Assembly: GCA_910579155.1 (NCBI GenBank)
Contig: CAJTTS010000104.1
Coordinates: 1-10,282 of the forward strand
Length of the DNA: 10,282 nucleotides
From: an uncultured Oscillospiraceae bacterium
GTDB lineage: Bacteria; Bacillota_A; Clostridia; Oscillospirales; Oscillospiraceae
Reading direction: 5' to 3'
The position numbers and the translations under genes were made by a program. The notes under the pieces are model-generated. The model saw nothing but the letters and a program-made list of their open reading frames with translations. It was not told where the DNA came from and did no database searches. Shown here in pieces: positions 376-10,282 of the stretch. Positions within the stretch are counted from its first letter, which is position 1; every line of letters begins with the position of its first letter.

Positions 376-1170
376 TTACAGCTCCGGCCCATCCTTCTGA
401 ACGGCGGGGAGCTTGATGTGGAACATCCGGCAGTAGTCCCGCTGGGCCTCCAGCTCACACTCAGCGATCAGCTTCACAAAGGCTTCGTCCGAGGGGGATC
501 GCTTCCGCTGGGCCTGCTGCAACGCGGTGATATAATCATGCCGCCACACCGGGGGAATGGACACGATGCAATAGCCCTGGTTTATCAGGATCAGGTTCAT
601 CAGCAGCCGCGCCGTGCGCCCGTTGCCGTCCTGGAAGGGGTGAATATCCACCAGGCGGCGGTGGGCGTAGGCGGCGAACTCTACCGGGTGCATGGCCTCC
701 CGCTTTTGGGGCAGCCCCGCCACAAACGCCGCCATACACGCGGGGACCTCCTCCGCAGCGGGGGGCACATACTCCGTCCCCGTGATGAATACCTGCCCGG
801 TGCGGTATTCCCCGGCGGCGTCCGGGTCGATACCATGGTAGAACAGGCGGTGCAGACGGCGGATCACGTCCTCCGTGATGGACAGATCCCCGCCGCGAGC
901 AACAGAAAGCATATAGTCGTAGGCTTTGGCGTGGCCAGTGGCCTCGTAGCAGTCCCGGATGGGCTTGCCCCCCACGGTGATGCCGTCCTCCAGCAGCACC
1001 TTGGTTTCGGAGATGGTGAGGGAGTTGCCCTCTAAGGCGTTGGAAGTATAGGTGGTGCCGATCTTATAGTAGGCGTCCAGCTCCCGCACCTCCGCCTCGG
1101 AGAGCGGGCGGTAGGCGCGGATCGCCGCCGCGTTGCGGTCAATTTTCGTCAAAAGCTCCCGGTTTCCCAT
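376..1170 (-). CDS. Fic-family protein (probable AMP-transferase) with N-terminal inhibitory motif
   Basis: 264 residues. The Fic core motif HPFQDGNGRTAR sits at residues 177-188, with H177 the expected catalytic histidine and DGNGR the loop that binds nucleotide phosphates. Fic enzymes usually transfer AMP from ATP to a hydroxyl side chain of a target protein, and some act as toxins. Near the N-terminus (residues 43-48, SNALEG) is a match to the (S/T)xxxE(G/N) autoinhibitory helix, with E47 as the glutamate that would block productive ATP binding. That makes it a self-inhibited, class II-like Fic with no need for a separate antitoxin. The start at 1170 is chosen because GGAGGGC precedes it correctly; an in-frame ATG at 1182 overlaps that ribosome site. 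The frame stays open far upstream, but that part overlaps the DUF3848 gene and looks like a shadow. It has its own promoter and terminator. The target is unknown. Confidence 0.92.
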   Translation of the reverse strand: MGNRELLTKIDRNAAAIRAYRPLSEAEVRELDAYYKIGTTYTSNALEGNSLTISETKVLLEDGITVGGKPIRDCYEATGHAKAYDYMLSVARGGDLSITEDVIRRLHRLFYHGIDPDAAGEYRTGQVFITGTEYVPPAAEEVPACMAAFVAGLPQKREAMHPVEFAAYAHRRLVDIHPFQDGNGRTARLLMNLILINQGYCIVSIPPVWRHDYITALQQAQRKRSPSDEAFVKLIAECELEAQRDYCRMFHIKLPAVQKDGPEL

Positions 1171-1197
1171 AGCGCCCTCCATAGTTTTGATATGGAT

Positions 1198-1226
1198 ATT
1201 ATACCATTTTTGCCCGCGAAACGCAA
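1198..1226 (-). promoter_or_regulatory. Predicted sigma-70-type promoter of fic
   Basis: On the minus strand, TTGCGT (1226-1221) and a perfect TATAAT (1203-1198) are separated by 17 bases. Transcription would start near 1191, about 20 bases before the fic ATG, which fits the ribosome site at about 1180-1175. The -35 box is only a partial match. Confidence 0.6.
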
Positions 1227-1253
1227 CGGGAACAGCGCACAGAATCCAGGCCG

Positions 1254-1673
1254 TCACAGCTCCGGCCCAGAGTGCTTGGGCGGCGTCCCCCGGCCTTGCC
1301 CCTGCTGGGGAGGCCGCTTCAAGCCATCCAGCACCGAGGGTCGCTCCCGGCCCTTGGAAGCCAGTTTTTCGGTCCAGTCCTCGATCACGTCCCGGAGATC
1401 CTCCATGTGGTGGGTCTCCACCGAGTTCCATTCCCGGTACAGTTCCGCCAGAGGTTCGGGTGAGGCCAGCAGCGCCGCCGCCTGTTCCGCAGGAAGCTCC
1501 AGGACATCCATCTCCACCAAAATGTCCTCCCGCACCGCAAACTCGGCGGCGTGATCCAGAATCTCGCTGGGCGGCAGGGTAATCAGCCATGCCCGGTATT
1601 TCTGCTGCTCCCCGGCCATTTTTTCGTAAAGCGCGTCATTGAGCTGGGTCTTGTCCATCGAAATCGTGTCCAT
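1254..1673 (-). CDS. DUF3848-domain protein with a shared RPSVL C-terminal tail
   Basis: 139 residues from MDTISMDKTQ. The central block (LYEKMAGEQQKYRAWLITLP, then FAVREDILVEMD, ALLASPEPLAELYREW and ETHHMEDLRDVIED) matches my memory of DUF3848, a small acidic domain of unknown function carried by Firmicute integrative elements beside DUF3849 and the large helicase. The last ~30 residues are a basic, proline- and glycine-rich tail starting RPSVLDGLKRPPQ; almost the same tail ends the neighbouring helicase fragment. Start 1673 is preferred over the in-frame ATG at 1688 because GGAGGA lies 8 bases before it, whereas 1688 has no ribosome site. It follows the helicase gene after a strong hairpin. 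Its last four residues (GPEL) and 3' end also resemble those of fic. Confidence 0.75.
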   Translation of the reverse strand: MDTISMDKTQLNDALYEKMAGEQQKYRAWLITLPPSEILDHAAEFAVREDILVEMDVLELPAEQAAALLASPEPLAELYREWNSVETHHMEDLRDVIEDWTEKLASKGRERPSVLDGLKRPPQQGQGRGTPPKHSGPEL

Positions 1674-2836: not shown

Positions 2837-2863
2837 TTATCTCATTTTGACGCGAAAGAGCGT
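2831..2863. repeat. 8-bp inverted repeat at the helicase/island junction
   Basis: ACGCTCTT (2831-2838) is repeated inverted as AAGAGCGT (2856-2863) with 17 bases between. It spans the point where helicase similarity stops and the less GC-rich island starts. It could be a junction scar or a weak terminator; the length alone does not exclude chance. Confidence 0.4.
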
Positions 2864-2951
2864 AAGCAGATGCGCTTGGAATGTAAAGAATAAAGAATCG
2901 CGTGGTAAAACAGTTTGAAAAAATAGCGTCTTGATGGGGAGGGATAGAACC

Positions 2952-3365
2952 GTGCGGATCGCAATCGTAGAGGATCAAGAGGTAGACGCGCAGCAGTTGA
3001 AAGGATATATCATGCAATTCCAGAATGAGAGCGGTATTCCGATGTACGTTACGCATTTCTCAAACGGGATGAATTTTTTAGATGAATATACCAACGATTT
3101 TGATGTGGTCTTTATGGACATTGAGATGCCTCACTTGAATGGAATGGAGACCGCTAAAAAACTTCGGAAGGTAGATGCCAGCGTGGCGTTGGTATTTATC
3201 ACTAATATGGCGCAGTATGCGATTGCTGGCTATGAGGTTAGTGCAGTTGACTTTATGGTAAAACCGGTGGGATATTATGGAGCCACTGATTTAATCGCCG
3301 GTTTTCAGGAAAAAGCGCAGCATATTTTACTTTTGTTGCCTTGCAAAATCTATATACAGAATTAA
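2952..3365 (+). pseudogene. Truncated LytTR-type response regulator, receiver domain only
   Basis: 137 residues from GTG (VRIAIVEDQEVDAQQLKGY). The receiver signature is complete: acidic pair E7-D8, phospho-acceptor D56 in VVFMDIEMP, T84 in FITN, and K104 in MVKPV, followed by GYYG. The AVDFMVKPVGYYG pattern is typical of AgrA/VirR-like regulators, which are about 240 residues long and carry a C-terminal LytTR DNA-binding domain. Here the protein stops shortly after the receiver in a poor hydrophobic end (HILLLLPCKIYIQN) and no LytTR domain follows in any forward frame. GTG 2952 is chosen because GGGGAGGGA precedes it; an ATG at 2934 has no ribosome site. No histidine kinase is near. It is most likely a remnant cut by recombination, although a stand-alone receiver that still binds a partner cannot be excluded. 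Confidence 0.75.
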
Positions 3366-3487
3366 TCAGGGTTTCCCTAAATAAGGAGGGGCTCCTGAGC
3401 TAGATAACGGAGTAGGGAGGGCGAGGGCGGTCTTTCAAGGAAAACGCCCTTAAAGAAGCGTAAAAATAATAATGTGCTGTTTGACTA

Positions 3488-3516
3488 TTGAGTTTCAGAA
3501 CAGAATTCATTATAAT
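3488..3516 (+). promoter_or_regulatory. Predicted promoter of the TIR/propeller/SLATT operon, with overlapping inverted repeat
   Basis: TTGAGT (3488-3493) and a perfect TATAAT (3511-3516) are 17 bases apart, a good vegetative promoter. A 7-bp inverted repeat, AGTTTCA (3491-3497) and TGAAACT (3516-3522), overlaps the end of the -35 box and the end of the -10 box, a layout that would suit a repressor site. Transcription would start near 3523, about 70-95 bases before the possible start codons of the first gene. The rest of 3366-3487 holds two weak stem-loops (3384-3396 and 3424-3450) and no gene I can support. Confidence 0.65.
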
Positions 3517-3590
3517 GAAACTGACAAAAGCAAACAAGTTTATTCCCTTTTCTCGGTGGAGGGATCTTTTTCCTTTTTGCAGTTGCACCT

Positions 3591-5963
3591 TTGACAAAGG
3601 AGTGTGAGGTAGTTACGATTTATTTGATTTATACAAATCAGCAAAGGGCAGACGCGGAGGAGATACTGCGCTTTTTAATGGAAGAAAAGAAGCTCACCGT
3701 CAGCTACGATCACACGAAATGCAGTGTTGTGCAGTCGGACAGCAGAATCGTCCAGGATAGCGCCATTATCCTGGTTTCGAATGCGGCGGTAGAGGATGAG
3801 GAATGGCAGGCGCGGGTGGCTTGGCTTTCTGAGGAGATCCGCATCATTCCGGTAAGCGGAACAAGGAACGCGGATTATACAAACCCTGAGCAGATTCCGC
3901 CCCGGATAAAGGAACTGAATTATATCCGCATAGACGGAAGGTACCTGGAACACATATGGGACTCCTTAATTACGGAAAAGGAATTTTATCTGGTCAAGAG
4001 TATGCTTCTTCTGAACAGAAGCGTATGGGTCTTTTCAAATTATTCCGAGGACTTTCTGCTGACGGATTCAAAAGCAGTCAAACAATATCTGGAGCTTTTC
4101 CTGGAAAAGCTCCAGATGGAATCCGATCCCTATTTCCACCAAGAGCTTGTGGGGATTACGGAGTATCTGATTGTCTCCATGCAATACACCCGAAGGCTGC
4201 GGAGGGGGAGGATCAAGGACTATATCAAACGCGCTGCCATTGTGACGGCGGTGATTGTATGCTTTGTGTTGTTTCGGATAGTTCTTGATCTCAGAAACCG
4301 ATTAAATTATACAAATATTGTGATAAGCGTAGGGGCATGTGAGGAAATGGCGCCGATCAATTCCATTAAACTGGTGGATGGCATCACAAATCCCTATATT
4401 ACGGGCGACAGCAGAAATGAGCTGTATCAAACGCTTTCAGAGTATCTTAACATGAACTGGCATAACAGCGATGTGGGGCTCAACTATAAGTGGCCTTTAA
4501 ATGACGCGCAGATTGCGTCAGACGAGCGCTGCATATGGTCGGCCAACGGGAATGGATCGATTGCGAAATGGGATTCCCATACGGGAAAAATTGTTGAGCA
4601 GACAAATATCTCGGCACAGCCGCTTGCGGCGCTCGCGGTCTCTGAGCAGGAAAAGCTCTTTGTCGCGGTGGATAAAGAGGGATATATCCTGAAAAAAGCG
4701 AATGAGGGTCCCTGGGAGAAAAGTCCTCGCCCGTATGAGATTCCCTTTGAAGAAGGAATCGACGCGGTATGTAATGAGGAAAGGAATTGGGCTGTTGTGG
4801 CCGACGCTGGGGGAACGCTTCGATGGTTTGACCTTCAATCCGGCATTGAGCTGATCTGGGATGCGCGGTTTGACGAGATTTTCTGTATCGAGCTGACCGC
4901 CGCGGGACTGGAGGCGGTTGTGAGCAGAGACGGCGCGCGGTACGACCTCTATATCCGTGAGGACGGAACGGTGGACGAAATCGGCATTCCGATTGACGCA
5001 GACAGCGGCTGTTCAATGGACATCCGGAACGGCGTGATTGTTATGGCTGATTCCAAGCTCCAGATCGTGACCTGGAGCAGAGCGGAGCCGGAGGTCAAAC
5101 GCTCCACAGGGCTGGTTCTCTCCAGACCGCTGCACCTGTGCTTTTTGAACGATCAGGTGATCGTTTATTATGACCGCAACACAGGCACGCACTTATACGA
5201 TTTGAAGCGCAGGTTAGACCTGGGGAGTATTTTGAGAAAAGCCGCGGTGGTATCGTCCTTATCCGCTTCACGAAATACAGTTATGGCATGTACACTTGCG
5301 ACATCGGTATGTCTGACGGAAAACATACAGGCGCTGCTGCCTGCTGACGAGCTGGATAGAGCTGATGTGCGCGCGGTCTACACGGAAAAGGCTATGTCCT
5401 CGGAGGGGAGAATCCAGAGGGCGTCAATTGAAGGCGAATACATGATACGCGTCGATCTCCGCCTGGATGATCGGGACATGACGGTGATGATTGACGGCGG
5501 AAACCACTTTTACATTGGAGAGGCCCAGCGAGACCACTCCCTCGCCCAGGCGGTCTATTATGTGGACAAGCCGGCAAACTTTGTGGGGAGGCCAACTGTG
5601 ATTGGAATTGTGCGGGACGGGGAGGTACTGCTGATTGGCGGCTCAGATGGTTCCTTTTACGAGCTGATATTCACGGAAACAGGCGGCTGCCTGCGGGGAG
5701 CACAGATGCAGGTTCCCTCGCATACATCTATTGTAGCAATCTATCAGACAGCGGATCGCTATTATCTGAAGGACGCGACCGGAACCTTTTGGAGTACCAG
5801 AATAGGCTGTGACGCTCTGACTCCGGAGGGCGCAGTGTCGGCGGTGAGGGAAAAGCTGCACTGCGCGGCGGCGGAGGGAATTTATGAGAGCGTTTCCAAA
5901 GAGACCCTGAAGGCTCTGGATGTGGCGATTCTGCCGGGAGGCGGCGTCAGGGAGTGGGAGTAG
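3591..5963 (+). CDS. TIR-like / transmembrane / beta-propeller protein (first of pair)
   Basis: Up to 790 residues. Residues about 9-118 look like a TIR-type fold: beta strand TIYLIYTNQQ, helix EEILRFLMEE, strand AIILVSNAA, then IRIIPVS and the usual PPRIKELNYIRID ending. At the place where catalytic TIRs have a glutamate (W-C-x-x-E) this protein reads EEWQARVAW, with Val at about residue 76, so NADase activity is doubtful. A basic stretch (RRLRRGRIKDYIKR) leads into one membrane helix at about 215-233. The rest has WD40/quinoprotein-like blade motifs such as GSIAKWDSHTG (322-332) and GGTLRWFDLQSG (407-418), suggesting a propeller. The start is uncertain: no in-frame ATG exists before residue 30. 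TTG 3591 has no ribosome site, while ACG 3615 or ATT 3618 fits AGGAGTGTGAGG and would give a sensible TIR N-terminus. It is first in a three-gene operon. Confidence 0.75.
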   Translation: MTKECEVVTIYLIYTNQQRADAEEILRFLMEEKKLTVSYDHTKCSVVQSDSRIVQDSAIILVSNAAVEDEEWQARVAWLSEEIRIIPVSGTRNADYTNPEQIPPRIKELNYIRIDGRYLEHIWDSLITEKEFYLVKSMLLLNRSVWVFSNYSEDFLLTDSKAVKQYLELFLEKLQMESDPYFHQELVGITEYLIVSMQYTRRLRRGRIKDYIKRAAIVTAVIVCFVLFRIVLDLRNRLNYTNIVISVGACEEMAPINSIKLVDGITNPYITGDSRNELYQTLSEYLNMNWHNSDVGLNYKWPLNDAQIASDERCIWSANGNGSIAKWDSHTGKIVEQTNISAQPLAALAVSEQEKLFVAVDKEGYILKKANEGPWEKSPRPYEIPFEEGIDAVCNEERNWAVVADAGGTLRWFDLQSGIELIWDARFDEIFCIELTAAGLEAVVSRDGARYDLYIREDGTVDEIGIPIDADSGCSMDIRNGVIVMADSKLQIVTWSRAEPEVKRSTGLVLSRPLHLCFLNDQVIVYYDRNTGTHLYDLKRRLDLGSILRKAAVVSSLSASRNTVMACTLATSVCLTENIQALLPADELDRADVRAVYTEKAMSSEGRIQRASIEGEYMIRVDLRLDDRDMTVMIDGGNHFYIGEAQRDHSLAQAVYYVDKPANFVGRPTVIGIVRDGEVLLIGGSDGSFYELIFTETGGCLRGAQMQVPSHTSIVAIYQTADRYYLKDATGTFWSTRIGCDALTPEGAVSAVREKLHCAAAEGIYESVSKETLKALDVAILPGGGVREWE

Positions 5964-5964
5964 C

Positions 5965-8271
5965 ATGAATCACATCTTTATCTCCTATTCGAGGAAAAAT
6001 GAGGCACAGGTGACCCGGTTTGCCGAGGGCCTGCGAAGACAAAGGCTTGAAATCTGGCAGGACATTGCGGGGAAGCGCTCAGGGATCCCGTACTCGGTGA
6101 AATGGTTTGATGCGATTGAGGAGGCGATCTTTACCGCCTCTGGAGCGATTATATTCGATACGGAGCCGTGGAGGTGTTCCGTTCCGTGCCAGAAGGAATT
6201 CCAGCTCATTCAGGAGACCGCTCTGCCTCTTATGTACATATCCATGGACAGGCTGCTGTCGGAGGAGGCCGACGTTATACATGAGGCCGCCCGCTGGTGC
6301 AGGGAGCAAATCGAGTCCAAGGAGAACAGCTATTGCAGGTGGATGGTATCCGGGGCCTACCGGGTCTATAAAAAACTCCCGATTGAGGCATATTTTCCCG
6401 CAGGAAAACGGCTGATCCACAATTGGCGGTGGCTGAAGGAATGCCGCCGGATCGCCGGGCAGAAAAACTTTCATGGACCGTGGAGACAGAGCCTGGAGCG
6501 GTTTCTGCACCAGGCAAGGCGCAGGCTGCTGGGGAACGTTGCGGCGCGGGCCCTGATCGGAATGCTTCTGTCCGTGGGAATAATCTGGGTTTTGGTGGTT
6601 GCGGAAATTTATCAAATGGCGAAAGTTTTAAATGACACCACATCCACAGGCTCCATATTTGCAAGCAAGTTGCAGCGGATCGGGGAATATGATCCGCTGC
6701 AGGCGATGCAGATGGTAAAGGAGTACAGCGCGGCCATCGACGAGTACACCCAAAGGGTAAAAGAGTTCGGCGATAAGGAATATATCCTGAAAAATCAAGG
6801 CGATGCGTTTGCGGAGTATGTCTCCCGGGATTATTACGATCAAAACAGGGTGTTGGCAGACCTTATTTCCCGAAACTATCCAATCGCGTTCTATGAATCT
6901 GTGGCAGACTGCCCGGTGGATATTTCCTCTGCAAGCAAGGAGCAGGCGGGAGGGCGCTATACGATATCCTTGTCGGAGGATACCGCTCAGGTGTTTATTT
7001 TTGACCGTGAGCAGGATATTATCCGTCAATTGCTGCTTGCGGCTGTTCCTGAGACATACTGTTTCAGTGATAACGGACAAGAACTGGTGATAGCGGCGGA
7101 AAATGAAGTATATGTATATGATCTGCTGGGCGAAGTCCCCCCAAGGCCGCTGGCCTATAATTTTGAAACGGTCTGCGGCCTCGCACTGTATGAGGACAAG
7201 ATCTACGCCACGACAGAGAGCGGCCATGTAATCGTATGGAATCATCCGTTTTTAAAGAGAATGCTCCACAGGCAGAGCTTAGCGTCAGGAGAGCTCATAT
7301 CGTTGGGCAACGGGCAGGCTATGGCGGTTTATACAGACGATGGCTGCCTGATCAAAAACGTGAACAACCGCGAAGAAGTCTATCCGCTCCCCTTCGAGGG
7401 AATTGATCCGGATAACCTTTCAGTCTCGGCGGATCATGCGCTTGCCGCGGTCTCGTACAGGCCGGCCGGAAGCGGCACCGATTGGATTGGACTGGTTGAT
7501 TTGGCAAGCGGAACGCTCAGGCAGACGTATGATACCGGATACCGGATCGCGGGATACACGTTTTCCGAGGATGACAGTGCGCTGATCATAACCTGCTGCG
7601 ACAGGAACAGGATCGCCAGGCTTGATCTGGAAACGGGTAGCATACAGGAATCCTCAGGAACTACGGTGTCTGAGCCGTTTTCGATTACCGCAGCCCACGG
7701 CAGAATCTTGGTATGCGACATTTTTGGTGTGCTCACCATATTTAATGACGCTCTGGAACAGGAGGGAGACAGCCGGTCAATCGGGTATCCGGCACCCCAA
7801 AAGCAACTTGCCGTCTCGCAGAACTGGGAGTGCTTATTGACCGCCGGCCGCGGCGGCAATGTAATTGGCGGTTGTTGCAGAACCGGGCTTTCCAGTAACG
7901 AACAGCCGATTTTCGTGCCTGTCATCGAAGAGCCCATTACATCCACCACATCCGTGGCGGTAACAGACGGCGGGGATTATGTGGCTTACGGAAATGCCGG
8001 CGGAGCGGTCTATCTCTGGGATGTAGGCGCGATGGAACAGGTGTGGAACGGGCATTGCGTACCGGAATCCATTGTCGGACTGTCATTTTCCAGCGACCTT
8101 GAAGCGCTGCTTGCGCTTGGCAGCTCCGGAACCATTTATGAAATGGATCTGACCGGCGTCCTGACAGAATGTGTGCCTGCGGAGCCTGAGTCAATATGGC
8201 GGATGCATACACAAAAGGCAGATGAAATCACAAAAAATATGTATGACCTTGGCCTGTTTTGGGATAAATAG
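5965..8271 (+). CDS. TIR / transmembrane / beta-propeller protein (second of pair)
   Basis: 768 residues, starting one base after the previous stop, with GGGAG before the ATG. The N-terminus is a clear bacterial TIR domain: HIFISYSRKNEAQVTRFAEG (3-22), LEIWQD (28-33), then AIIFD (61-65) and SVPCQKEF (72-79). E78 occupies the place of the catalytic glutamate in NAD-cleaving TIRs, although the usual Trp before Cys is Pro. Known bacterial TIRs hydrolyse NAD or make cyclic ADP-ribose signals; activity here is inferred. A basic region (ERFLHQARRRLL) precedes a single membrane helix at about 196-214. After a helical segment (about 230-320) the remaining ~440 residues carry beta-propeller motifs, for example GHVIVW (about 418-424) and GGAVYLWDVG (about 679-688). 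The layout parallels the upstream protein, so the two probably arose by duplication and then diverged. The TIR is well supported; the propeller is less so. Confidence 0.82.
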   Translation: MNHIFISYSRKNEAQVTRFAEGLRRQRLEIWQDIAGKRSGIPYSVKWFDAIEEAIFTASGAIIFDTEPWRCSVPCQKEFQLIQETALPLMYISMDRLLSEEADVIHEAARWCREQIESKENSYCRWMVSGAYRVYKKLPIEAYFPAGKRLIHNWRWLKECRRIAGQKNFHGPWRQSLERFLHQARRRLLGNVAARALIGMLLSVGIIWVLVVAEIYQMAKVLNDTTSTGSIFASKLQRIGEYDPLQAMQMVKEYSAAIDEYTQRVKEFGDKEYILKNQGDAFAEYVSRDYYDQNRVLADLISRNYPIAFYESVADCPVDISSASKEQAGGRYTISLSEDTAQVFIFDREQDIIRQLLLAAVPETYCFSDNGQELVIAAENEVYVYDLLGEVPPRPLAYNFETVCGLALYEDKIYATTESGHVIVWNHPFLKRMLHRQSLASGELISLGNGQAMAVYTDDGCLIKNVNNREEVYPLPFEGIDPDNLSVSADHALAAVSYRPAGSGTDWIGLVDLASGTLRQTYDTGYRIAGYTFSEDDSALIITCCDRNRIARLDLETGSIQESSGTTVSEPFSITAAHGRILVCDIFGVLTIFNDALEQEGDSRSIGYPAPQKQLAVSQNWECLLTAGRGGNVIGGCCRTGLSSNEQPIFVPVIEEPITSTTSVAVTDGGDYVAYGNAGGAVYLWDVGAMEQVWNGHCVPESIVGLSFSSDLEALLALGSSGTIYEMDLTGVLTECVPAEPESIWRMHTQKADEITKNMYDLGLFWDK

Positions 8272-8301
8272 AGTGCAAATGGCAAGAGGGAAAGGATAGA
8301 A

Positions 8302-8841
8302 ATGAGCAGTAAAAATATGCAGGTGCCCGCTGATAATACGAGAAACGCGGCTTTGAACGATTTAACCGCGCAGGTTCAGAACGAGAAAACCAGAAGCTAT
8401 ATTACCACGCGCCTTATGCCGCAGATGGAGTGGTACAGCCATGAAGGGAGAAAATGCAAAAAGCGATATTTTCGCTGGACGATGGCGGCGATCAGTTCCG
8501 GTGCGTTGATCCCGGTGATATCTGTGTTTGCGGATGGGAGCGCTTGGGTGAAAGCCCTGATTGTGGCGCTGGGTTCCGTTGTGACGGTGTGCAATGCCTA
8601 TATTGCAATGAACAATTTCAAGGAATTGTGGCTGACCTATCGGAGCATCCGTGAAAAACTGCTCCGAATACTATACTGTTATTTCAATCATGCCGGCGCG
8701 TTCAGCCAAAGCGGAACACAGGAGGCAAGGGATGTATTGCTGATCAATCTTTGTGAGGAGGAGATGGTCGGCGAAAACAGCAAATGGGTGTCCTGTATGC
8801 AGATGGAAGCCGGTGCGCAGGACTCATCAGGCAAAAAATAG
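8302..8841 (+). CDS. DUF4231/SLATT-type two-helix membrane protein
   Basis: 179 residues, third gene of the operon, 30 bases after the second, with AAAGGA ahead of the ATG. The order of motifs fits DUF4231 of the SLATT group: YITTRLMPQMEWY (33-45), a basic K/R run (50-58), two close membrane helices (about 59-77 and 82-102, with GALIPVISVF and LIVALGSVVTVCNAYIA), then FKELWLTYRSIREKLLRI (106-123) and a closing ENSKWV (158-163). SLATT proteins were proposed from comparative genomics (Burroughs and colleagues) to be pore-forming effectors beside nucleotide-signal genes in bacterial conflict systems. Here the partners are TIR proteins, so it may damage the membrane once they fire; that role is inference. 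The basic stretch before helix 1 predicts both ends in the cytoplasm. Confidence 0.78.
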   Translation: MSSKNMQVPADNTRNAALNDLTAQVQNEKTRSYITTRLMPQMEWYSHEGRKCKKRYFRWTMAAISSGALIPVISVFADGSAWVKALIVALGSVVTVCNAYIAMNNFKELWLTYRSIREKLLRILYCYFNHAGAFSQSGTQEARDVLLINLCEEEMVGENSKWVSCMQMEAGAQDSSGKK

Positions 8842-8890
8842 GCGGATGCTGATTTAGATGATGCCGTCAAAATGCATGATATAATTACCC

Positions 8891-8940
8891 CCAGCGGCTG
8901 GTGCCCGATACCGGTTGTATCGGGGCATATCTTTGCCCCG
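8891..8940. other. Cluster of hairpins, two mutually exclusive, downstream of the operon
   Basis: CCAGC-G-GCTGG (8891-8901) is followed by CCCGATAC/GTATCGGG (8904-8911 with 8917-8924, 5-base loop) and by CGGGGCA/TGCCCCG (8921-8927 with 8934-8940, 6-base loop). The second and third stems share CGGG at 8921-8924, so only one can form at a time. There is no T-run as in a classical terminator, but this could still end the operon transcript or protect its 3' end. A further small palindrome, GGGAT-A-ATCCC, lies at 8960-8970. The rest of 8842-9078 holds no gene I can support. Confidence 0.45.
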
Positions 8941-9078
8941 AACAGAACAAACAAAACAGGGGATAATCCCAAATTCCGTGTAAACTCCATTTGAGGTGCG
9001 AATAGAGCAAAATTTATTCAGGACGGTAGTGGGGGAATTCGGCTGCCGGCATTTCAACAAGATAACGCGGAAGGAGAT

Positions 9079-9122
9079 GGATGTCAAGGGCCACAGAGCC
9101 GTTTATCACGCCCTTGACATCC
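9079..9122. repeat. 13-bp perfect inverted repeat just past the IS256-type transposase
   Basis: GGATGTCAAGGGC (9079-9091) and its exact complement (9110-9122) enclose 18 bases. It lies 14 bases beyond the original stop codon of the decayed transposase at 9136, on its 3' side. It may be the transposase terminator or part of the element end; I could not identify the terminal inverted repeat of the IS. Confidence 0.65.
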
Positions 9123-9135
9123 GGCCTCGGCGATG

Positions 9136-9788
9136 CTACTCAGGCATACGCCCGGCAAAATAGATGGCCATCTAGGCGTGAATCAGGCTCCAGTCCTCCC
9201 GGCGTCCGATCCACTTTTTTGTAATATCCATCATGGCCAGATACAGGATTTTCAGCAGGCTGTCATCGGTGGGGGACACGGAATTGGCCTTGGTGACCTT
9301 GCGCAGATGGCGGTTGAAGCCCTCAATGGCGTTGGTGGTGTAGATGAGCCTGCGCACCTCCTGAGGGAACTTGAAATACGTGCTCAGGTTGGCCCGGTTG
9401 GTCCGTCAGGACTGGGAGATTTTGGGGTATTTCTTGTCCCAGCGTTCCCCAAAGGCAGCCAGAGCGGCCTGCCCGTCCGCAGCGGCGTAGACCGCCTTCA
9501 GATCGGCCATGAGGGCCTTCAAATCCTTGTAGGACATATATTTGCTGGAATTACGAAGCTGGTGGATGACACAGCGCTGGATTTCCGTCTGAGGAAAGGT
9601 GGCATGGATAGCTGCGTCAAATCCCGTCAAATTGTCTGTACAGGCAATGAAAATATTCCCTACACCCCGGGTTTTCAGGTTGTTGAGTACGGTCGCCTAG
9701 AACTTGGCACTCTCGTTTTCGCCTACCCACAACCCAGGACTTCCTTCCGCCCATTCAGGTTGACCCCAATGGCGATGTAGACTGCCTT
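9136..9788 (-). pseudogene. Decayed IS256-family (mutator-type) transposase, C-terminal half
   Basis: About 218 codons remain of a family usually near 400 residues. In order: KAVYIAIGVNLNGRKEVLG, WVGENESAKF, IACTDNLTGFDAAI, TEIQRCVIHQLRNSSKYMSY, RRLIYTTNAIEGFNRHLRK and MAIYFAGRMPE. The Asp in CTDNLTGF and the Glu in NAIEGFN are family catalytic positions, and RCVIHQ is the conserved C/H motif. The gene is dead. A one-base loss near 9730 shifts the frame after KEVLG, and in-frame stops lie at 9699-9697 (TAG where Trp is expected), 9408-9406 (TGA where Trp is expected) and 9174-9172 (TAG where Gln is expected). Similarity stops at about 9788, where serine recombinase sequence begins on the other strand, so the N-terminal half is gone. 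Confidence 0.85.
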
Positions 9789-9869
9789 CTGAAGGGCAAG
9801 GTGATTTGTGGGTGCTGCGGCGGAAAGATGCAGCGCAAGCGTGGCACCGGCCATGCCGATTGGCACTTT
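9786..9869 (+). pseudogene. Fragment of a large serine recombinase (zinc-ribbon region)
   Basis: The plus-strand frame reads LLKGKVICGCCGGKMQRKRG followed by TGHADWHF, which resembles the zinc beta-ribbon of large serine recombinases (a CxxC knuckle followed by conserved basic residues and an aromatic DWHF-type strand). About 28 codons remain. The fragment is squeezed between the broken IS256 transposase on its left and an IS3-type end on its right, and the second half of the ribbon is missing. Large serine recombinases integrate and excise many Firmicute elements, so this may be what is left of an element integrase. It is too short to be functional. Confidence 0.6.
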
Positions 9870-9873
9870 AAAC

Positions 9874-9893
9874 TGTCCCCCAAGTCAAGGACA
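9874..9893. repeat. Probable end of the IS3-family element
   Basis: Serine recombinase similarity stops at about 9870 and TGTCCCCCAAGTC begins at 9874, about 12 bases beyond the stop codon of the IS3 transposase. IS3-family ends often start TGTCC, so this is the likely terminal repeat. The matching end is outside the window, so it cannot be confirmed here. Confidence 0.4.
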
Positions 9894-9904
9894 ATAATAG
9901 GGTG

Positions 9905-10282
9905 TCATTCAGGGTCTTGAGACGGTTTCACAAAGGGGTCTGTAGGCGTAGATCTCTTTAAGGGATAAACTCCAGATTCCAGGTAACGCGCATATTCGTT
10001 CGGAGACAGGAGTGCCAGGTTCCATTGGTAACGATCATTGTTGTAATAGTCTGCCCAATCGTCTATACGGGCAAGGAGATCGTTGTAATCGCTGCAGGAG
10101 GCCAAGTCCAACTCGTCCTTCATGTGTCCGAAGAAGCTCTCCTGCGGCGCATTGTCCCAGCAGTTGGCTTTCCTGGACATGGACTGGCGCAGATGATTGT
10201 CCCGGATAATTTGAATGAATTTAAGGCTTGTGTAGTGGGAGCCCTGATCGCTGTTGATCAGGGTTTCTGCCTGCAGCGAAAC
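9905..10282 (-). CDS. IS3-family transposase OrfB, C-terminal part (runs off the window)
   Basis: 125 residues are visible and the gene continues beyond the right edge. The integrase core reads LINSDQGSHYTSLKFIQII, then LRQSMSRKANCWDNAPQESF and FGHMKDEL. The Asp in SDQGSHY and the Glu in PQESFFG are the second and third DDE residues, so this part looks intact. YYNNDRYQWNLALLSPNEYA is the usual C-terminal block. In IS3 elements OrfB is normally made by frameshifting from OrfA, which would lie further right. The tail after LESGVYPL is slightly extended. Unlike the neighbouring IS256 copy it has no stops or frameshifts in the visible part, so it is probably the more recent arrival, and its end abuts the serine recombinase remnant. 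Confidence 0.9.
   Translation of the reverse strand, partial: VSLQAETLINSDQGSHYTSLKFIQIIRDNHLRQSMSRKANCWDNAPQESFFGHMKDELDLASCSDYNDLLARIDDWADYYNNDRYQWNLALLSPNEYARYLESGVYPLKRSTPTDPFVKPSQDPE

Follow-up and report, generated by a model that had tools for sequence, protein, structure and literature searches.

A recurrent gene pair encoding two predicted membrane-anchored propeller proteins, one with a TIR domain, in an uncultured Oscillospiraceae bacterium

The core of the operon described here is a pair of adjacent genes, A and B, and not the trio of A, B and C. The operon lies in a 10,282-nucleotide stretch of an uncultured Oscillospiraceae bacterium (the window), and all features below are on its + strand. 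Gene A (about 3615–5963), gene B (5965–8271) and gene C (8302–8841) form a real operon; they are on the same strand and tightly packed, with gaps of 1 base between A and B (TAG-C-ATG) and 30 bases between B and C, as the original prediction had read them. We give an even chance to the reading that A and B together form a heteromeric transmembrane TIR receptor, in which the ectodomains switch an NAD-consuming TIR.

In all 18 genome loci found with B, gene A is located directly upstream of B. The same order is present in three distant loci found with A (L029, L030 and L031); owing to this recurrence, we regard the A-B pair as a real unit. The distances among A proteins and among B proteins correlate at 0.98 over 19 pairs, a set that excludes L008, L011, L013, L014, L016, L017 and P0002/P0021 and includes six pairs of protein clusters whose partners are joined only by the equal size of their longest contig. 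A and B are inherited together. Joint descent alone is also expected to produce such a correlation. In L030, gene A is split into two ORFs.

The distribution of the pair is rare and patchy. Three surveys, in which not every first-look candidate was scored, covered 391, 244 and 246 genomes and gave at least 1, at least 5 and at least 5 carriers, previously known ones counted; among the scored candidates, 0, 0 and 3 carriers, respectively, were new. Many of the bacteria that carry the pair come from animal guts. In nine of the 18 locus records, the title gives a gut site of goat, sheep or roe deer; five more are RUG isolates, which we take to be from rumen. No paper describing the pair was found in the open-licence literature, nor is it described in the accessible parts of PMC8195603 and PMC12220804; no name for the set was found there either, in line with the original prediction. 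Should the predicted topology be right, these recurrent but unnamed genes of bacteria from animal guts would gain a function.

The TIR domain of B (5965–6318, approximate limits) matches Pfam TIR_2 (PF13676) with an E-value of 9.9e-7 and a score of 29.7 bits (cut-off 28). Our alignment of B (A4) has 32 rows: the window, P0003–P0018 and 15 of the 18 loci; P0001 (99% identical), P0002 (N-terminus cut), L008, L011 and L017 were dropped. TIR_2 is matched at E ≤ 0.001 in 32 of 32 sequences, and all 32, window included, share W..S..C..E, in which the Glu expected to be catalytic lies between βC and βD. In the window, the motif is at 6169–6198 and the predicted catalytic Glu codon at 6196–6198. In a profile search, the C..E of gene B aligns with the C..E of 7xoz and SpbK (9phb), and the PDB matches of the B TIR profile include SpbK and Cat1. 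On these motif and profile matches, the TIR domain of B is predicted to be of the NAD-cutting type, with the predicted catalytic Glu kept. It is followed by a predicted transmembrane segment (6553–6609, residues 197–215) and a propeller region (6886–8154, residues about 308–730), which is confident in the AlphaFold model (pLDDT 88). Eight of the 18 loci encode a short B protein of about 530–540 aa, in which the middle of the propeller region is missing, eight encode a long one and two are cut by the contig end.

Gene A has the same layout in its AlphaFold model (pLDDT 87), also with a confident propeller region. It contains an N-terminal α/β domain (3615–3914, approximate limits), a predicted transmembrane segment (4236–4292, residues 208–226 counted from 3615) and propellers (4452–5807, residues about 280–731, counted likewise); just after the transmembrane segment, at 221–250, the model is of low confidence (pLDDT about 56–72). 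The N-terminal domain has no S..C..E motif, and W..S..C..E is present in 0 of the 26 sequences of the A alignment (A5: window, P0020–P0029 and 15 of the 18 loci; P0019, P0030, L013, L014 and L016, in which A is cut or split, were dropped). No Pfam TIR family is matched by the window's gene A. Sub-threshold TIR_2 matches were observed in three relatives only, L030 (E 0.0011), L031 (E 0.0086) and L001 (E 0.051). Compared with the B TIR profile, the A domain does not stand out: 3 of 20 shuffled-column profiles scored at least as high as the real one, and 5 of 60 block shuffles were as high or higher. A further profile comparison gave 9% probability and E 0.0035 over 52 columns. A PDB profile search with the A domain returned no TIR, and the Foldseek and VIA match lists for the A and B models are filled by propellers, so that these lists speak neither for nor against a TIR fold in the N-terminal domains. 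A recognisable TIR in A was not confirmed: the profile comparison resembles its shuffles, the PDB search gave no TIR and the Pfam matches are weak and limited to three relatives. The domain is possibly, and at best, a degenerate TIR.

The original prediction had called two TIR proteins, each with one membrane helix and a propeller-like C-terminal region, and had proposed structure models and HMM searches as checks. The propellers of both proteins were borne out by the models; one strongly hydrophobic segment is present in each of the window's A and B. The TIR call stands for B, which is over the TIR_2 cut-off, but not for A, whose possibly degenerate domain has neither the motif nor a Pfam TIR match.

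The start of gene A differs from that of its relatives, whose ATG aligns with ACG at 3615; the mechanical ORF begins at TTG 3591, which is no clear start codon. It is improbable, in our view, that gene A is damaged in the window copy by this ATG-to-ACG change and that the operon is decaying. Judged from protein clusters, P0019 (99% identical, 779 aa) and P0021 (88% identical, starting further in) look as if they lacked that ATG as well. However, P0019 represents 28 sequences, the frame is otherwise open, the sequence is conserved and a Shine-Dalgarno-like AAAGGAG is in place at 3596–3602.

Charge and composition suggest that the TIR is inside and the propeller outside; Cys content speaks against this prediction. 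Cys after the transmembrane segment averages 1.5% in A and 1.9% in B, above the median of exported reference proteins (0.98%) and like that of cytosolic ones (1.5%), which argues for a cytosolic propeller. The export classifier that we used is modest, with a cross-validated AUC of 0.85; in the reference set, it assigned 70% of the exported proteins, but also 15% of the cytosolic ones, to the exported class. The C-terminal part of the window's gene A scored only 0.27. Propellers may bias this classifier. Hydropathy is not uniform among the relatives: B of P0007 has no segment over the threshold, and A of L001, L004 and L011 has a second one.

In the receptor that we propose, each of the two proteins would consist of an N-terminal domain in the cytosol, a single long helix across the membrane and a β-propeller ectodomain. 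The paired ectodomains would bind a ligand, the signal would be relayed through the helices and the cytosolic domains would be brought together. The TIR of B, with its predicted catalytic Glu, would then consume NAD+, causing cell arrest or death, or produce an NAD-derived signal; the motif-less domain of A would be its partner without catalytic activity. SLATT (gene C) might be a membrane effector added in the lineage of the window, perhaps gated by the NAD-derived signal. Toll-like receptors are single-span membrane receptors with the repeat ectodomain outside and the TIR inside, according to the accessible part of PMC7075850. By the proposed topology, A and B would resemble them in the single span and the outer repeat ectodomain, and B in the inner TIR. 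Different from Toll-like receptors, they are bacterial, have the reverse order with TIR first and carry propellers instead of LRRs (no LRR family was matched in A or B in Pfam), and their topology is predicted only. We tentatively suggest, at somewhat short of an even chance, that the pair is a bacterial counterpart: an outside-in two-chain receptor of a catalytic and an inactive TIR-type chain, an obligate heteromer into which lineage-specific effectors such as SLATT are plugged downstream. If the topology is true, a bacterial TIR would form the inner part of a receptor at the cell surface, as it does in animal Toll-like receptors, and the motif-bearing and motif-less chains would offer a simple model for TIR assembly controlled from outside.

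SpbK is an anti-phage NADase. B resembles SpbK and other bacterial TIR proteins in its profile and motif matches; unlike them, it adds a transmembrane helix, propellers and a conserved partner gene. Compared to Apaf-1/STAND-WD40 sensors, A and B are membrane anchored by prediction and have no NTPase domain; none was matched in the window's A and B (Pfam, E ≤ 1) or among the families of B relatives.

Gene C encodes a SLATT_1/DUF4231 membrane protein, as originally predicted; it is over the cut-off for DUF4231 (64.7 bits, cut-off 24.7), Pfam SLATT_1 (33, cut-off 26.3) and NCBIfam SLATT_1 (92, cut-off 41). In the accessible part of PMC7159879, SLATT is a predicted nucleotide-signal-responsive pore, present on several occasions together with nucleotide-related effectors such as TIR. 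The same part describes the GAP1-N1/GAP1-N2 and EACC1 systems as two-gene membrane conflict systems, with SLATT beside nucleotide-acting effectors and a possible membrane-associated sensor. Our operon is like them in having SLATT beside a putative nucleotide-acting effector and two genes for the membrane with a possible sensor, but differs in that A-B consists of two membrane-propeller proteins; at E ≤ 1, Pfam gave no GTPase or caspase match for either of them.

The original prediction had made recurrence of the trio its test. Only A-B recurs, in the 18 loci and the three distant ones. No match to the SLATT profile was found in the 18 loci, in 15 of which 1.6 kb or more of sequence lies 3′ of B (its absence cannot be judged at L011 and L017, where the contig ends in B, and hardly at L004, with about 390 bases); SLATT_1 is over the cut-off in 0 of 17 host genomes of unknown completeness, with a weak match in one. 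The pair therefore does not generally depend on SLATT, and the trio as a conserved unit was dropped, since no SLATT follows B where the region is visible. It may still do so in the window's own lineage, which the 18 loci do not sample. Beyond the window, we infer a link of SLATT to A-B only for one metagenomic contig, from a coincidence of length: the A cluster P0025, the B cluster P0006 and the SLATT cluster P0036 each list a contig of 6926 bases. Most likely, SLATT is a lineage-specific add-on to the pair. That contig, together with the position of SLATT as the next gene in the window, 30 bases after B, would suit a two-step scheme, with the trio as the functional unit, in which an NAD-derived messenger from the TIR of B opens a SLATT pore; given the loci and genomes without SLATT, we hold this scheme to be quite unlikely. 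Thoeris has a TIR enzyme beside an effector gene, and here too a TIR gene adjoins a possible effector gene. Different from Thoeris, SLATT is optional, sensor and TIR are in one membrane protein, and ThsA was not matched in A, B, C or the upstream regulator (PADLOC, E ≤ 1).

An immune or conflict system, as the original prediction had proposed, gained little from the neighbourhood. The Pfam families listed among the neighbours are mostly metabolic, and the commonest occurs in at most 4 of 112 neighbour ORFs. These ORFs matched 58 PADLOC families, 46 of which fall on one reverse transcriptase ORF in L016. The other defence-model matches are a mad3-like region in L013 and, not traced to ORFs, mad2 (two ORFs), SspA, DndA, PDC-M51B (two) and VakA (two). 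PADLOC also matched an ORF of L002 with a radical-SAM-type cysteine motif and a TatD-like ORF of L014; both labels are our own reading. The matches are few and scattered, and no multi-gene defence island is evident. Exact-pattern scans of viral contigs with the B, A and SLATT profiles gave nothing related, and searches with B turned up no relative in phages or plasmids. Plasmids searched with the upstream flank gave no result, and with SLATT two distant DUF4231 proteins. In one close species pair, dN and dS are 0.051 and 0.48 for A and 0.076 and 0.644 for B; with a dN/dS of about 0.11–0.12, both genes are under purifying selection in this pair.

An anti-phage function of A-B is possible. We consider it unlikely that the pair acts by abortive infection, the propellers sensing a phage-derived signal upon which the B TIR depletes NAD+, SLATT permeabilises the membrane, or both. 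The SpbK and Cat1 matches, the rare and patchy distribution, the few defence matches nearby and the mobile-element remnants beside the window copy fit such a role, and TIR and SLATT are conflict-system effectors in the accessible part of PMC7159879; the metabolic neighbours, the lack of B in viral, phage and plasmid records, the purifying selection and the poor conservation of SLATT do not. These neighbours and this selection, with the ruminant records, agree with a receptor that serves gut anaerobes in housekeeping or in signalling from the environment; it would sense wall fragments or ligands of host or neighbours and signal through TIR without cell death. This reading is somewhat unlikely, as the rarity of the pair suits an accessory system and no Pfam family recurs widely among the neighbours. 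L007 and L008 have similar upstream genes, a further point on its side.

The original prediction had one promoter drive the operon. A promoter-like site, TTGAGT-17-TATAAT (3488–3516, 10 of 12 matches), is well placed; however, it is doubtful, because a scan of 2850–9130 found 9 such sites against 6.8 ± 2.8 in shuffles. A terminator-like hairpin in the leader between this site and gene A (3544–3564, 7 pairs, 3 of them G-C) is a possible, putative attenuator; an Rfam search gave no result. The sequence scan placed another terminator-like hairpin 3′ of gene C (8904–8924). The island was also said to be less GC-rich than its flanks. In 500-base windows, its G+C content is 0.41–0.56; this holds against the upstream flank (0.55–0.66) but not against the downstream flank (0.51–0.56). 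The mobile-element debris noted earlier was confirmed downstream, where an IS256-like remnant and the end of an IS3-type transposase with rve domains are located.

Genes A, B and C lie on the same strand. Gene A was placed by its ORF at about 3591/3615–5963 and gene C at 8302–8841; gene B (5965–8271) was started at the Met common to its relatives, the mechanical ORF start being 5920. In the window, one base separates the A stop from the B start and the B-to-C spacing is 30 bases, in agreement with the tight packing of the three genes in the original prediction. The site scan framed the set with one promoter-like site (3488–3516) at the 5′ side and one terminator-like hairpin (8904–8924) at the 3′ side; another terminator-like site (3544–3564) is located in the leader. 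Terminator-like sites are in excess over shuffles (14 versus 5.0 ± 2.3), whereas promoter-like sites show no clear excess (9 versus 6.8 ± 2.8); the single promoter proposed for the operon has a well-placed candidate, but not one that stands out in number. Within region 3591–3624 of the window's A, ACG (3615) aligns with the start ATG of the relatives. Later starts were also called for A in two close metagenomic clusters, P0019 and P0021, therefore the lineage may share a non-AUG start for gene A.

The TIR_2 match (Pfam) of the window's B is barely above the curated cut-off. TIR_2 was found at E ≤ 0.001 in all 32 aligned B sequences, all of which contain the W..S..C..E motif; the motif is also readable in the distant B of L029, L030 and L031. 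Compared against the PDB, the profile of the B TIR matched seven sequences at E ≤ 0.01 (2.6e-4 to 9.6e-3), all of TIR type by their labels, and in the printed profile alignments the C..E of B aligns with the C..E of 7xoz and SpbK. According to PMC7075850, TIRs possessing the Glu between βC and βD depend critically on it for NADase activity; the TIR Glu is conserved in B, but not in A. The N-terminal domain of A is of α/β fold in the model, with pLDDT mostly 83–90 and about 60 at residues 81–100. Pfam gave no TIR match for the window's A, and the TIR_2 matches in A of L001, L030 and L031 are all below threshold. In profile comparison, the A N-terminal domain did not score above shuffles against the B TIR, and S..C..E is present in 0/26 aligned A. 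The domain is possibly a degenerate TIR, though sequence methods do not establish it as a TIR; of the two TIR proteins first proposed, B is recognisable as such and A is at best degenerate. Gene C scores above cut-off against DUF4231 and against SLATT_1 of both Pfam and NCBIfam, as expected for the predicted DUF4231/SLATT-type protein.

The B profile matched 18 loci in the genome collection, and an A homologue is immediately upstream of B in all of them; the B start lies −10 to +3 bases from the A stop in the 17 loci where the search pattern located it (all but L015). Searches with A matched 1/391, 5/244 and 5/246 genomes in G001's class, G008's order and G014's class, respectively, samples that include genomes already known as pair carriers. 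Three new genomes (L029, L030 and L031) emerged, where A is followed by one TIR_2 gene (E 2.1e-13, 6.5e-17 and 5.2e-14, respectively). For 7 of 11 A clusters among close metagenomic relatives, the longest contig equals that of a B cluster in size. The correlation between A and B distances is 0.978 when 19 pairs are used and 0.926 for the 12 genome loci alone, with 0/5000 permutations as high in either case. These sequence comparisons indicate that A and B are inherited together, with no partner exchange. Joint descent by itself would yield such a correlation, thus the unit is supported and contact is unproven.

B is short (about 530–540 aa) in L006, L007, L008, L010, L012, L013, L014 and L018, where the middle of the propeller region is missing; A is full length in all six short-B loci that contain the entire A gene. 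Gene A is split into two ORFs in L016 and L030, by decay or sequencing error. P0030 (1330 aa), which has a long N-terminal extension, gives a weak alignment with A (21% identity across half of the query, E 1e-5) and is possibly a related membrane-propeller protein elsewhere.

Recurrence of the trio was the check proposed for the operon; the A-B pair recurs in 18/18 loci, but the SLATT profile matched none of the 18, at least 1.6 kb 3′ of B being covered in 15. SLATT_1 was over cut-off in 0/17 genomes, the completeness of which is not established; G015 has a weak match (26.9 bits) elsewhere in the genome. The longest contig is 6926 bases in each of P0006, P0025 and P0036, and outside the window we infer linkage of SLATT to the pair for one contig only (6926 bases). 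There are close SLATT relatives, 19 proteins in all. SLATT is accessory to the A-B pair, although in the lineage of the window itself it may be a regular component.

As originally read, each large protein combines one membrane helix with a propeller-like region: A and B of the window each have one predicted transmembrane segment, and propeller folds are present in both models. K+R counts place the N-terminus inside in 24/26 A and 30/32 B. A classifier based on composition (AUC 0.85), whose training set comprised 44 exported and 319 cytosolic proteins of eight host genomes, assigned the C-part as exported in 19/26 A and 26/32 B, and the N-part in 1/26 A and 0/32 B. Two observations count against the propeller being outside: Cys after the transmembrane segment is as common as in cytosolic proteins, and the C-part of the window's own A scores 0.27 (0.69 for B). 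Of the two orientations, the one with the TIR inside and the propeller outside has the better support, though it is not proven. In such an arrangement, ligand binding outside would drive assembly inside; B would cleave NAD+, A may serve as regulator or scaffold, and SLATT may contribute a pore.

We scanned 112 neighbour ORFs of at least 170 aa lying within about 7 kb of the 18 pairs, some surely non-genes. They matched 138 Pfam families; the 25 listed are mostly metabolic, with at most 4 ORFs per family among them. At 1e-5, they matched 58 PADLOC families (25 listed). Among the 10 of 112 ORFs inspected, a single reverse transcriptase in L016 accounts for 46 of the 58, and QatD-like and pVip-like ORFs occur near the pair in L014 and L002, respectively. 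No multi-gene defence island is evident from the ORFs inspected; single defence genes may lie beside some copies. The reverse transcriptase ORF (L016:13056-14147, opposite strand, <1 kb past B) matches PADLOC RT (E 4.8e-34) and DRT- and RT-Cas1-type models; it could belong to either defence or a retroelement. In L013, the C-terminal part of one ORF 3′ of B (L013:4231-6267) resembles PADLOC mad3 (E 3.4e-31).

No relatives of B were found in viral contigs, phages or plasmids. Between L007 and L008, the only close species pair, A is 91% and B 88% identical; dN/dS is about 0.11–0.12, and the propeller is slightly less conserved than the N-domain (89% versus 95% in A). Given this ratio and mild propeller divergence, the pattern does not look like that of an arms-race sensor. 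The original reading matched the operon to no named system, and we likewise found no description of the A-B pair in the open-licence literature; the closest published ideas, both in PMC7159879, are the occurrence of SLATT in contexts with TIR and EACC1, a two-gene system at the membrane.

Upstream of the operon, one Fic/DOC family gene (376–1590, minus strand; PF02661, E 5.9e-22) is located near DUF3848 (1257–1688) and DUF3849 (2–304). Just 5′ of the operon, one short ORF (2931–3365) carries a response-regulator receiver domain (Response_reg, E 4.7e-16) with no output domain detected, and looks like a truncated gene. The predicted mobile-element debris was found downstream (9137–10282), where an IS256-like remnant is followed by an IS3-type transposase end (rve_2); the remnant is 74% identical over 654 bases to one Selenomonas plasmid, and several other matches are annotated IS256.
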